Shown in pieces: positions 47,471-51,229 of a stretch of DNA of 64,000 bases. How positions within the stretch are numbered: position 1 is the first letter of the stretch; every line of letters starts with the position of its first letter. The position numbers and the translations under genes are program-made. The notes below the pieces were generated by a model, which searched no databases, had not been told where the DNA came from, and saw only the letters and a program-made list of their open reading frames with translations. Origin of the DNA: Halorubrum trapanicum. Lineage in GTDB: Archaea; Halobacteriota; Halobacteria; Halobacteriales; Haloferacaceae. The stretch spans positions 186,001 to 250,000 of the forward strand of contig NZ_AP017569.1 in assembly GCF_002355655.1 (NCBI RefSeq). Direction: 5' to 3'.

Positions 47471-48376
47471 TCAGACGCGGATCTCGGAGTCGGCCGCCTC
47501 GCGTTCGAGCGCCCGGAGGACGCTGGAGACGGAACCGTCTGTCTCGGCCGCGTTACGCATCAGAACCGTCTCGCTCGGGAAGAGGTGTTCGCCCACGGAG
47601 AGCCCGTGTTCGCGCGCCGTGGAGCCGGTGACGGTGAGGTACACGCCGAGGCCGACCCGGGCGATCGCGGCCTCTTCCTCCTCGTCCGCGTCGGGATAGA
47701 CGAACTCGATGCCGTCGAGCGCGTCGGTGCCCAACACGGCGGTGACGAGGCGCTCGTACCGCGGCGAGATACACAGCGGGCCGTCGTAGTCGGCGAGGTA
47801 CCCGCGGTCGAAGGTCGTGTTCGGGGCACGTCGGTCCTCGCGTCCCATCAGAGTGTGGTACACCGTGTCGCCGAGCCCGGTCACGACGCGCACGTCGGTG
47901 TCGACCGGGTCGATGCGGTCGTTGATGTCGGAGATGTTGCCGAGCCCGGCGTCTCGAATCCCGACCACCTCCTCTAAGACGAGGTCCGCGGAGTCGAATC
48001 CGAGCGCGAACTCGTGGGTTCGAAGCGCGCGGAACGGCTCCTCGCGACCGACGAGCTTGACCGTCACGTCGCCCAGATCGACCGTCGCGGCGTCGAAGAC
48101 GATCCGACGCGGCTTCCCGTTCCGATCGTCGCGCAGCAGCGTGAACTCCGGCTCGGCGGGTGTCTCCGGGTCCGAGTACTCGGCGAGCCGCTCGTACGGG
48201 CCAGCGTCGGCGTCGACCGACCCCTTCGTGACGGCCTTCTCGTACCGGAGCGTGTTGCTCACGCCGTCCGCGAGCCGGTCGAGGCGGTCGTCGTCCGCGA
48301 CGGCCGCGATCCGCTCTAACACCGCTTCGAGCGGGCGTCCCTTACGGGGGACGGCGACCGGAACCGGATCTGTCAT
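47471..48376 (-). CDS. HisG-like protein (ATP phosphoribosyltransferase fold), function uncertain
   Basis: A 301-residue protein starting at ATG 48376. The start VPVAVPRKGRPLEAVLERI resembles the HisG beginning. HEFALGFDSADLVLEEV, CISPRYERLVTAVLG (compare the ATRYP motif), and VGLGVYLTVTGSTAREHGLSVGEHLFPSETVLMRNAA (compare the phosphate-loop TGxTLxxN) follow the same order. Several catalytic residues of true HisG are changed (for example ADAIVDIV to GVYLTVTG). I infer a paralogue with another role. No other histidine genes are nearby. Confidence 0.55.
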   Translation of the reverse strand: MTDPVPVAVPRKGRPLEAVLERIAAVADDDRLDRLADGVSNTLRYEKAVTKGSVDADAGPYERLAEYSDPETPAEPEFTLLRDDRNGKPRRIVFDAATVDLGDVTVKLVGREEPFRALRTHEFALGFDSADLVLEEVVGIRDAGLGNISDINDRIDPVDTDVRVVTGLGDTVYHTLMGREDRRAPNTTFDRGYLADYDGPLCISPRYERLVTAVLGTDALDGIEFVYPDADEEEEAAIARVGLGVYLTVTGSTAREHGLSVGEHLFPSETVLMRNAAETDGSVSSVLRALEREAADSEIRV

Positions 48377-48484
48377 TGATCGATCTGCGGCCGGGCGCGT
48401 AAAACGGGTTGCGTTTTTGAACCGGTGCGGCGGGACGCGATTGCGCCGTTCCACGGCGGCGCCGCAGCGTCAGGAATAGTCGGT

Positions 48485-50302
48485 TTAGGGGCCGAAAGCC
48501 TCGTTGAGCCGGCTGCGGAACTCGTCGAGCTCTTCGAGGTGGTCGTTGATCTCGTCCAGCTCGGCCGACACGTCGTCGAGGTCCTCGCCGAGCCGGTCCT
48601 CGACCTCGGTCAGCCGGGCGTCGACCTCCGCGAGGTCGTTCCACAGGTCGTCGAACTCCTCGTCGAAGCGGTCGAGCGTGGACTCCACGTCGTCGACGCG
48701 TTCGGCGGCGTCCGCGGCGCGCTCATCCGCATCTTCGGCCAGATCCTCGGCGTTCTCCGCGCGTCCGGCCGCTCTGTCGACCTCCTCGTACAGCGTCTCG
48801 ACGTCGTCGCCCAAGTCGTCGACGGTACTTTCGACCGCGTCGGCCCGCCCTTCCATCCGCTCGACGTCGGCGACGAGGTCGTCGACGTCGTTCTCGACGG
48901 TCGAGACGGCGTCTTGAACCGACTCGACGGCCTCGTCGACGGACGCGACCTCGTCTTCGACCGCCCGCACGTCCGCTTCCACGCCACGGACGTCCCCCTC
49001 GACCGCCTCAACGTCGTCCTCGACGGTGTCCACCCGCTCGCCGACCGCGTCGACCGCCTCGGAGGCGGAGTCGACCGCGGAGTCGACGCGGTCGACGTCC
49101 GACGCGATCTCCTCGCGCTCGTCGTCGGCCGCGTCGAGGCGGTCGTCGAGGGCGTCGACCTCGGACTCGACGGCGTCGACGCGCTCGTCGATCCCGTCGA
49201 GGATCTCGCGCGCCGTCCCCTCGCCGTCGATGAACTCCGCGAGCGCGTCCGCGTACGCCTCGATGTCGGCCACGCTCGACTGGAGGCGGGCGATCCGCAC
49301 GTCGACGCTGCGCGGCACGCCGCCCTCGAACGCCTCCTCGATCGTGGCGATGTCCTCCTCGGCGGCCGCCCCGGTGCGGATCTCGGCCGCCAGCGCCGCC
49401 GCGAGGCCGCCCTCGCCGGGCAGCTTCGCGGGTTCGTCCGCTTCGGTCTCGTCGCCTTCGGCGACCTGCCGTTCGTCATCATCGGACTTCTCAGCGCCCG
49501 TCTCGTCGGTTTCAGGCGTTTTGTCGGGACCCTCGTCGTCCGCCGGTTCGGGTTCGACCTCGGTCTCCGTCGCGGCACCGACCGGGTCGCCCTCGTGTGC
49601 GGTCACGGCGGCCGTGCCCTCGTCGACCGCGCGAGATTCGGGAGCGTCGGGTTCCTCGTCGTCGAGTTTCGGTTCCTTATCGTCGAGTTCCGGCGCTTCG
49701 GCGTCGAACTCCGGCTCCTCGGTGTCAGCGTCCGGTTCCGCACGGTCTTCCCCCGCCTCGTCCTCGGCGGACTCCGCGTCGGACTCCTTGGTTTCGGACG
49801 CCTCGTCGGACCCTTCCGCGGGATCCTCCGGCAACAGCCCGTCGTCTTCCGCCATTCCGGGGAGGGTCGCGCGGTCGCCGGAGAGCACCTCTCGCACCGC
49901 GTCCGTGTCGCCGGCGCCGAGGACGTCCTCTATCTCCTCGCCGACGGGCACGTGTTCGATCACCGGCGTCCCGAGGAACCCGTCGAGATCCGGGTCCTCG
50001 TCGCGGATCCCGAACACCGTCTCGACGCTCTCGTCGGGGTCGATGACGCGTTCGAACTCCACCCGGTGGTCCTTGTACGCCGTCCAGTTCTCGCTCTCGT
50101 ACTCCGGGTGGAACCCCACCCGGTCCATCGGGAACGACTCCGGGATCCGGTCGACGATACGCACCCGTACGGGGTCCTCGCGGTGCGAAGAGAGGGTGTA
50201 CATCACCGCGGGCACGGGGAACGCGTCGTCCGTGAAGGATTTCTCGACGCGGATGCCGTCCTCGTCGACGGTCGTGGCCGCCTCCGCCGTCCGTTCGCTC
50301 AT
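48485..50302 (-). CDS. Long acidic coiled-coil protein
   Basis: A 605-residue cytoplasmic protein in three parts. Residues 1-125 form a compact domain (VEKSFTDDAFPVPAVMYTLSSHREDPVRVRIVDRIPESFPMDRVGFHPEYESENWTAYKDHRVEFERVI). Residues 130-290 are an Asp/Glu/Pro-rich disordered linker. Residues 300-600 are nearly continuous heptad repeats (DDVEAVEGDVRGVEADVRAVEDEVASVDEAV and so on) predicted to form a coiled coil. There is no membrane helix and no ATPase domain. It looks structural, as in cytoskeletal or chromosome-organising proteins. I do not recognise the family. Confidence 0.7.
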   Translation of the reverse strand: MSERTAEAATTVDEDGIRVEKSFTDDAFPVPAVMYTLSSHREDPVRVRIVDRIPESFPMDRVGFHPEYESENWTAYKDHRVEFERVIDPDESVETVFGIRDEDPDLDGFLGTPVIEHVPVGEEIEDVLGAGDTDAVREVLSGDRATLPGMAEDDGLLPEDPAEGSDEASETKESDAESAEDEAGEDRAEPDADTEEPEFDAEAPELDDKEPKLDDEEPDAPESRAVDEGTAAVTAHEGDPVGAATETEVEPEPADDEGPDKTPETDETGAEKSDDDERQVAEGDETEADEPAKLPGEGGLAAALAAEIRTGAAAEEDIATIEEAFEGGVPRSVDVRIARLQSSVADIEAYADALAEFIDGEGTAREILDGIDERVDAVESEVDALDDRLDAADDEREEIASDVDRVDSAVDSASEAVDAVGERVDTVEDDVEAVEGDVRGVEADVRAVEDEVASVDEAVESVQDAVSTVENDVDDLVADVERMEGRADAVESTVDDLGDDVETLYEEVDRAAGRAENAEDLAEDADERAADAAERVDDVESTLDRFDEEFDDLWNDLAEVDARLTEVEDRLGEDLDDVSAELDEINDHLEELDEFRSRLNEAFGP

Positions 50303-50395
50303 ATCCGCACGTCCCGGAGCAGGGGCTTAAATTCCACGGGCCGGGTTTCGTGGTTGATAACCGAAACGCCGGGAAAACGCCCGCTCGACTGCCGT

Positions 50396-51229
50396 CTACA
50401 GGTCGATCCGATCGCCGATCTCGACTATCTCCAACCGCTCCGGCGACTCGTAGCTCCGCACGTGGTCGTGGAGCGCGGTCGGGTCGGCGGTCAGTCCCTT
50501 CCACATGTCCCAGTGGGTCGGCACCAGCCGGTCGAGTCCGAGGTCGTTCGCGGCCGTCGCGATCTCGTTCTCGTCGCTGTACCACTTCGTCCGGACCGGC
50601 TCGCCCGTCTCCTTGTCGGGGACCGTTCCCTCGGAGCCGAACGCGAGGACGCCAATGTCGATGTCGAACCGCTCCGCGAGCCCGGTAAAGGACGGCGAGG
50701 GCTTGCTGTCGCCGGCGTGGAACACCGTGCCGGCGTCGTGTTCGATCACGTAGCCGACCGGATGGGTGGCGTCGGCGTCGCGCGTCTCGACGACGTGGAC
50801 GGTGAACTCGCCGATCCGCAGCTCGTCGCCCTCCCGAACCTCGGTGAAGGCGGCCTCCTCGACCGCGTACTCCTCGGTCCACGCCTCCTCCTCGCGCGCG
50901 ACCGCGAGCGAGTCGTCGGGCGCGACGAGGTCGGCGTCGGTGTTCGCTAAGATCGGCGCCTGCGAGGGGCCGTGGACGTGGTCCGTGTGCTCGTGGGTGG
51001 CGAGCACGGCGTCCGCGGCCTCCACGTCCTCGGGATCGAACGGAATCGGTATCATGCGTATCGTGCGCGGCGGGTCGCCCGTGCCGACGTACGGGTCGAT
51101 CCAGAGGACGGTCCCCTCGCTCCCCTTGATCGCGAAGCCGTTACAGCCCAGGTACCACAGCGCCACCGTGTCGGGGTCGGCGTCCGCGACCGCGCGCGGC
51201 AGCCAGTCGCCCCAGTCGGAGTCGACCAT
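50396..51229 (-). CDS. MBL-fold metal-dependent hydrolase (UlaG/UPF0173-like)
   Basis: A 277-residue metallo-beta-lactamase-fold protein. LWYLGCNGFAIKG at the start and the metal motif LATHEHTDHVHG near residue 80 are followed by FHAGDSKPSP near residue 172 and a final PTHWDMW near 242. These form a pattern like the L-ascorbate-6-phosphate lactonase group. The natural substrate is unknown. The gene stands alone. Confidence 0.85.
   Translation of the reverse strand: MVDSDWGDWLPRAVADADPDTVALWYLGCNGFAIKGSEGTVLWIDPYVGTGDPPRTIRMIPIPFDPEDVEAADAVLATHEHTDHVHGPSQAPILANTDADLVAPDDSLAVAREEEAWTEEYAVEEAAFTEVREGDELRIGEFTVHVVETRDADATHPVGYVIEHDAGTVFHAGDSKPSPSFTGLAERFDIDIGVLAFGSEGTVPDKETGEPVRTKWYSDENEIATAANDLGLDRLVPTHWDMWKGLTADPTALHDHVRSYESPERLEIVEIGDRIDL

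Follow-up and report, generated by a model that had tools for sequence, protein, structure and literature searches.

The stretch of Halorubrum trapanicum DNA analysed here (64,000 nucleotides, hereafter the window) encodes a real and widely conserved protein of haloarchaea, to which the libraries searched assign no family name. We propose that it is a haloarchaea-specific, cytosolic, self-associating coiled-coil scaffold carrying a binding head, a reading for which we find belief and doubt about evenly balanced. The initial annotation had described a 605-residue protein at 48485-50302; the coordinates and the length stood, and the strand has to be set as minus. The gene and the parts of its product, in order from the N-terminus, are the following:

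48485..50302 (stop codon included), minus strand: gene of the coiled-coil protein, 605 aa from an ATG start (orthologues, third-position-biased divergence).
49943..50302, minus strand: predicted Ig-like beta-sandwich head, residues 1-120 (AlphaFold2, alignment).
49853..49942, minus strand: short conserved segment DAVREVLSGDRATLPGM, residues 121-150 (conservation 0.86; pLDDT 44-60).
49418..49852, minus strand: disordered acidic linker, free in length, residues 151-295 (composition, pLDDT, lengths).
49187..49417, minus strand: conserved helical block, here called the collar and forming the N-terminal end of the rod, residues 296-372 (conservation, helices).
48599..49186, minus strand: coiled coil in one unbroken heptad register with a Val-rich core, residues 373-568 (periodicity, core residues, heptad length changes).
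48485..48598, minus strand: C-terminal end of the rod with the conserved tip [FW]RxxLxxxF, residues 569-605 plus the stop codon (conservation, invariants).

The closest named loci to the window gene are those of Halorubrum. When the 150 N-terminal codons were compared with those of four close orthologues, 13-25 differences fell in third positions and 0-3 in the first and second positions together; change in the head is almost confined to third codon positions, whereas the linker changes in all three, which is the pattern expected of a real gene with a free linker. A chance frame is thus ruled out by conservation and third-position bias. The plus strand opposite the gene harbors only an overlapping antisense frame (48425-50950), and a scan of the locus for promoters and terminators, run with a bacterial model on the DNA of an archaeal host, found none.

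The initial annotation had counted a lack of conservation of the N-terminal domain among the findings that would speak against its proposal; this domain turned out to be nearly universal in the class: a profile of the head matched in 271 of the 292 Halobacteria genomes and in 71 of 77 genera, mostly once and in some genomes up to six times. Since the remaining 21 genomes gave no match, the gene is probably dispensable. Out of 148 genomes drawn from the phylum, 21 match the head profile, all of them from the order of the window or closer.

The same domain had been described as compact and of unknown type; it is compact according to the AlphaFold2 model (alignment of 26), in which it forms a beta-sandwich of nine strands with pLDDT block means of 82-93 for residues 11-120 (82-95 when the full-length model is included), and it matches none of the families searched. 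Its mean conservation over 53 sequences is 0.86, equal to that of residues 121-150, and the residues invariant in the alignment of relatives include GFHP and WTAY.D.RV. Probing Pfam with residues 1-155, 121-372, and 151-295 (E <= 5 or 1) did not retrieve any family for the head, the linker, or the collar; neither the head sequence nor its profile matched PDB sequences at E < 0.2, and Foldseek returned no match to the head model at E <= 0.001. The best fold match is the mu-homology domain of the COPI delta subunit (Z 8.4, 3.2 A, 102 residues), and AP2 mu2 chains reach Z 6.6-7.4, values to be read against the background stated for the tool, where models without a clear match typically have a best Z of 7 to 8. 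GAE and MSP domains also appear in Foldseek. The eukaryotic adaptin-type and MSP members bind short peptides, and several of the matched PDB titles are peptide complexes; the presence of binding modules among the best of these weak matches was counted in favor of a binding head. Against it, the matches lie at or near background, and scores like those of the adaptin-type domains are also reached by carbohydrate-binding modules, a chitinase, and topoisomerase VI-B.

The acidic linker noticed previously was borne out, Asp and Glu making up 44% of residues 151-290. It is disordered in the full-length AlphaFold2 model (pLDDT 34-49), and its mean conservation in the 53 sequences falls to 0.37.

In the rod, the hydrophobic periodicity of 3.5 residues over positions 373-600 reaches 10.3, versus a maximum of 1.5 in 2000 shuffles, and the same test on residues 1-150, 151-290, and 291-372 was unremarkable. 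Valine is the commonest residue at both core positions of the coil. The heptad phase shifts near residue 569 and the helix continues to residue 603; hence, the heptads reported by the initial annotation are real, and their extent is about 200-230 residues rather than the approximately 300 claimed. Both ends of the rod are conserved and its middle is variable: in the 53 sequences the mean conservation is 0.81 for the collar, 0.54 and 0.53 for residues 373-495 and 496-540, and 0.76 for residues 541-604. Nine collar residues (A301, L304, E307, R309, R336, Q341, Y350, F357, and G362) and two residues of the tip (R596 and F603) are invariant in 31 rows. The collar and the tip are two conserved blocks that the initial annotation had not mentioned. 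The full-length AlphaFold2 model (alignment of 31; pTM 0.33) places helices at 300-309, 315-325, and 332-360 in the collar and long helices at 365-480 and 494-603.

The length of the coil, measured between the tip and an anchor placed where the collar ends, evolves almost only by whole heptads. The first anchor patterns missed 23 rows and a looser version missed two (L140 and L164). The 38 Halorubrum coils (one of these rows carrying the label Halobellus) show 13 different lengths, from 126 to 266, and all 38 fall in one class modulo seven, while the linkers, measurable in 31 Halorubrum rows, span all seven classes. On a tree of the two neighbouring genes, the 38 coils require at least 20 length changes and no change of class; for the 31 linkers, the length must have changed at least 25 times and the class 17 times. 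Pairwise gaps relative to the window protein, which share history and are hence not independent, are multiples of seven in 54 of 63 cases in the coil and in 13 of 296 in the linker.

Beyond Halorubrum, we considered the nine genera with two or more rows (two having only two rows, and one of these two, Halohasta, a single length), single-row genera being uninformative on the constancy of the class; 88 of 91 coils belong to the modal class of their own genus. The exceptions are L196 in genus g22 and L048 and L153 in genus g29, the latter two probably representing one species taken twice, which would give 88 of 90. L196 was mis-anchored by the looser patterns, yet it is off by one residue under the first anchors, too; the coil of this protein, which lies off the length class of its genus, contains His-rich heptads of the HDGRLDD type. 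The class differs between genera, so that phase breaks do get fixed, but rarely.

A pattern of this kind might arise from mutation alone, through slippage between 21-bp repeats in a low-complexity coil and with no functional demand on phase. Within the DNA of the coil, TRF did detect short arrays of 21-bp units (48883-48961, 48955-49007, and 49121-49200), but they match at just 65-75%, and the linker also has such an array (49653-49721, 72% match) without the heptad-sized gaps that characterize the coil. Even though the whole-heptad indels could partly reflect slippage of this type, we consider it very doubtful that slippage is the entire explanation. Whatever the function of the protein, the coil offers an uncommonly clear example from nature of evolution by whole heptads, and could serve as a system in which selection on helical phase is separated from repeat slippage.

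The unbroken register, the heptad-quantised lengths, and the conserved ends flanking a variable middle were all counted in favor of the rod of a scaffold. According to this reading, which draws on models and sequence, residues 296-603 would self-associate in register as a homo-oligomer, most likely a parallel one, with the collar and the C-terminal tip acting as docking or assembly sites and the variable coil between them as a stiff spacer, whose helical phase would matter and whose length would not. Since a flexible linker separates the head from the rod, only the collar and the tip can be coupled in phase. The Ig-like head, on its disordered acidic tether, would make contact with a partner, for which a short peptide or the edge of a strand is the probable candidate; the partner-binding role assigned to the head and the tip is a guess on our part. 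The protein would lie in the cytosol: it lacks a strongly hydrophobic stretch (the best 19-residue mean is 0.67), and this was counted together with the architecture of a relative described below (L139). The rod might instead form an intrachain hairpin, because the single-chain model interrupts the helix at 481-493, leaving two nearly equal helices; some of the coil length steps consist of a single heptad, which argues against it.

The genes flanking the coiled-coil gene were then considered:

50396..51229, minus strand: MBL-fold hydrolase, UlaG-like, 277 aa, upstream neighbour (PF12706, 9.1e-18; PDB 3bv6 and 2wyl).
47471..48376, minus strand: 301-aa conserved protein with weak HisG-like similarity in its C-terminal part, downstream neighbour (profiles, conservation).

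The gaps separating them from the coiled-coil gene are 93 bp and 108 bp, respectively; other genes nearby in the window encode TrkA, DUF5805, and integrase-like proteins. The 301-aa protein looks like an unnamed HisG-related paralogue. Its members share 62-91% identity with that of the window over 18 rows; the window member scores 15.2 bits with PF01634 (HisG), under the cut-off of 25.5, and 16 of the 18 match this family at E <= 1, the best at 0.00024. The alignment of the family and that of true HisG proteins matched by hhalign over 47 columns at 24%, and a true HisG is encoded elsewhere in the host genome. Neither the reading frame nor its profile retrieved a PDB sequence at E < 0.2. At E <= 1e-20, the gene occurs in 266 of the 292 Halobacteria genomes.

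We examined 49 named loci, 47 of them with a complete gene, and took as adjacent those genes lying on the same strand within 400 bp. By this measure, 39 of the 47 loci have the MBL gene as their upstream neighbour and 45 have the HisG-like gene downstream, an order maintained also on a Natrinema plasmid. In a class-wide set of 24 stretches (L143-L166, among which L153 repeats a named locus), the HisG-like gene was found in 20 and the MBL gene in 19; three further stretches excluded from this count (L140, L141, and the truncated L142) contain no HisG-like gene. Moreover, 13 stretches surrounding the HisG-like gene were drawn from genomes in which the coiled-coil gene has no listed copy (11), is represented by a weak one (G291), or lies elsewhere (G210); the absence of the coiled-coil gene can leave the MBL and HisG-like genes as direct neighbours with 35-88 bp between them (L230, L232, and L233), and by coordinates this holds for L231, too. 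These data are in agreement with a scaffold or activator dedicated to the two neighbouring proteins, for which both the conserved order and the joining of the flanking genes in the absence of the middle one may be invoked. We nevertheless regard this as rather unlikely, given that the coiled-coil gene and the HisG-like gene are each found without the other, that eight of the 47 loci have the MBL gene in a non-adjacent position or do not show it, and that in two the HisG-like gene lies about 1.1 kb away. On a Salinibaculum plasmid carrying a more distant relative, neither neighbour was found.

Divergent relatives show which parts of the protein travel together. The collar and the tip recur jointly in L134, L136, and L137, and in L138 with a degenerate tip, which was counted in favor of the scaffold reading; L132, having a collar-like segment and no tip, the relatives consisting of the head alone, and the 21 genomes without a match count against it. 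L127 and L132 combine the head with a coil and a hydrophobic segment. In L139 (5953-7869), a Tat-like start, a PQQ propeller, and a hydrophobic segment precede the head, apparently a membrane-spanning, sensor-like arrangement, and in L130 (4731-7502, genome G027) a gene identified by Pfam as FtsZ is followed, after about 150 bp and on the same strand, by a head with hydrophobic segments. The variety of these settings suggests that the head has been recruited by several proteins as a cytosolic binding module. Finally, L136 is composed of a head, a CheA P2 domain scoring over the Pfam cut-off, a collar, a short coil, and a tip; L138 has a similar layout with the P2 domain under the cut-off (0.0016), and in L128 and L131 the middle region is comparable but escapes recognition by Pfam. 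The four P2-type segments matched their own CheA by hhalign at 47.9%. Judging from these sequences, the P2-type region of L136 and L138, and also of L128 and L131, might serve as a CheY-binding scaffold.

The coiled-coil gene is also associated with CheF: it is present in 179 of the 181 CheF-bearing genomes (180 of which score over the family cut-off) and in 92 of the 111 without CheF (Fisher p 3.6e-7, a value uncorrected for phylogeny, the absences being clumped by lineage). The two CheF-bearing genomes that lack the gene are G030 and G032. Within genus g18, G046 has neither the gene match nor CheF, and the other eight genomes have both. As a control, CheF is present in nine of the 20 listed genomes that lack the HisG-like gene (Fisher 0.15, with six unlisted absences counted with the rest). 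A tie to the archaellum itself is unsupported, since 12 of the 21 genomes lacking the gene do have an archaellin match, in one case below the cut-off.

As to function, for which the initial annotation had named cell shape, chromosome organisation, and motility, the association with CheF and the P2-bearing relative are the only leads, and they fall short of proof. They might indicate an adaptor linked to chemotaxis or motility, in which the coil would transmit or position signals, in the manner of the phase-conserved coiled-coil linkers of sensor-effector proteins, and the protein would work with the CheY, CheF, or archaellum side. In the PadC signalling proteins, 54% of the linker lengths differ by multiples of seven (excerpt of PMC9587094); the distribution in g18, the control, and the P2-type segments also speak for it. 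CheY and CheF have been described at haloarchaeal poles (excerpt of PMC6509185). However, 92 genomes retain the gene without CheF, the 21 absences are confined to few lineages and amount to a much smaller number of independent events, no P2 domain was found in the window protein (Pfam; residues 1-155, 121-372, and 151-295), neither che nor arl genes lie immediately beside the gene, and the archaellin distribution just mentioned does not tie the gene to the archaellum. On balance, we regard an adaptor of this type as unlikely.

The whole-protein hits in Pfam and NCBIfam are at the level of the coil and spread over many unrelated families (106 Pfam families at E <= 1), several above the Pfam cut-off. 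The top Pfam hit is FlaC_arch (PF05377), with 47.9 bits versus a cut-off of 27.8; its best stretch (374-410) covers 37 residues of the repeated heptads, and this repeat scores above the thresholds of Laminin_II, DUF1664, COG6_N, and Alanine_zipper as well. FlaC_arch/ArlCE proteins are likewise archaeal, but the head, linker, and collar match nothing and the immediate neighbours are not arl genes; since the match is no better than that of a generic coil, membership was rejected. The highest NCBIfam score is that of SMC, 61 bits versus a cut-off of 567. An SMC/Rad50 ATPase was also rejected, because the protein lacks the Walker A motif G....GK[ST] and scores far below the cut-offs of both families, in keeping with the long free coil described initially. 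Since this motif is missing from the window protein, the label "AAA family ATPase" of the Natrinema plasmid orthologue (L070, 4965-7154) seems to be a coil-driven misannotation and was not adopted. Among the open-access literature in PMC, no paper was recognised as being on this protein family. The claim that long coils are rare in archaea is only roughly right: within the excerpt available of a survey of 22 proteomes, coiled-coil proteins represent 2-3% of the genes in four archaea from outside the haloarchaea, and coils of over 250 residues do occur (PMC1322226).

The protein does have the long rod, conserved ends, and continuous heptads of the intermediate-filament type, and one might therefore think of a cytoskeletal protein whose rods polymerise by way of these ends, giving the cell its shape or stiffness. 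The variable middle, the whole-heptad changes, the Ig-like domain, the disordered linker, and weak coil-level scores to Filament and to the crescentin rod would agree with it. Coiled-coil-rich and SMC-like proteins have been discussed as possible cell-shape elements in Haloferax, where the shape determinants named are RdfA, Sph3, DdfA, and volactin (excerpt of PMC10869688). Both profile scores are, however, under their cut-offs (23.0 versus 40 for Filament, 21.4 versus 100 for Rod_CreS) and unspecific in view of the many families matched, and 21 of 292 genomes have no match. We hold such a filament to be quite improbable. A bolder combination, in which the protein would be the haloarchaea's own intermediate-filament- or lamin-like scaffold, polymerising via its conserved ends, evolving by heptads, and organising chemosensory or motility complexes, is a long shot.

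The protein behind the preferred reading, that of a cytosolic scaffold with a binding head, is nearly universal in haloarchaea, has no Pfam match in its head, linker, or collar, and gives coil-level hits only when searched as a whole. This makes it well suited to addressing a gap in the cell biology of archaea, namely, what organises the cytoplasm, the poles, and the shape of haloarchaeal cells.

Compared with known systems, the window coil shares with the PadC linkers the length differences in multiples of seven (excerpt of PMC9587094); unlike PadC, the window protein is without a sensor or enzyme domain. Adaptin appendage, mu-homology, and MSP domains share the general beta-sandwich arrangement with the predicted head, but with Z values of 6.6-8.4, near the stated background, and a sequence identity of 5-15%. 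SMC, Rad50, ASRP, and Sph3-type proteins are long haloarchaeal coils, as is the window protein, which is set apart from SMC and Rad50 by the curated cut-offs and by its lack of the ATPase motif. Lamins and intermediate filaments have conserved rod ends, a heptad-quantised length, and an Ig-like domain on a flexible linker. The window protein differs from intermediate filaments, lamins, and crescentin in having the Ig-like domain at the N-terminus and profile scores under the cut-off, and shares with them the conserved ends of the rod, the heptad-quantised length, and the Ig-like domain carried on a linker.
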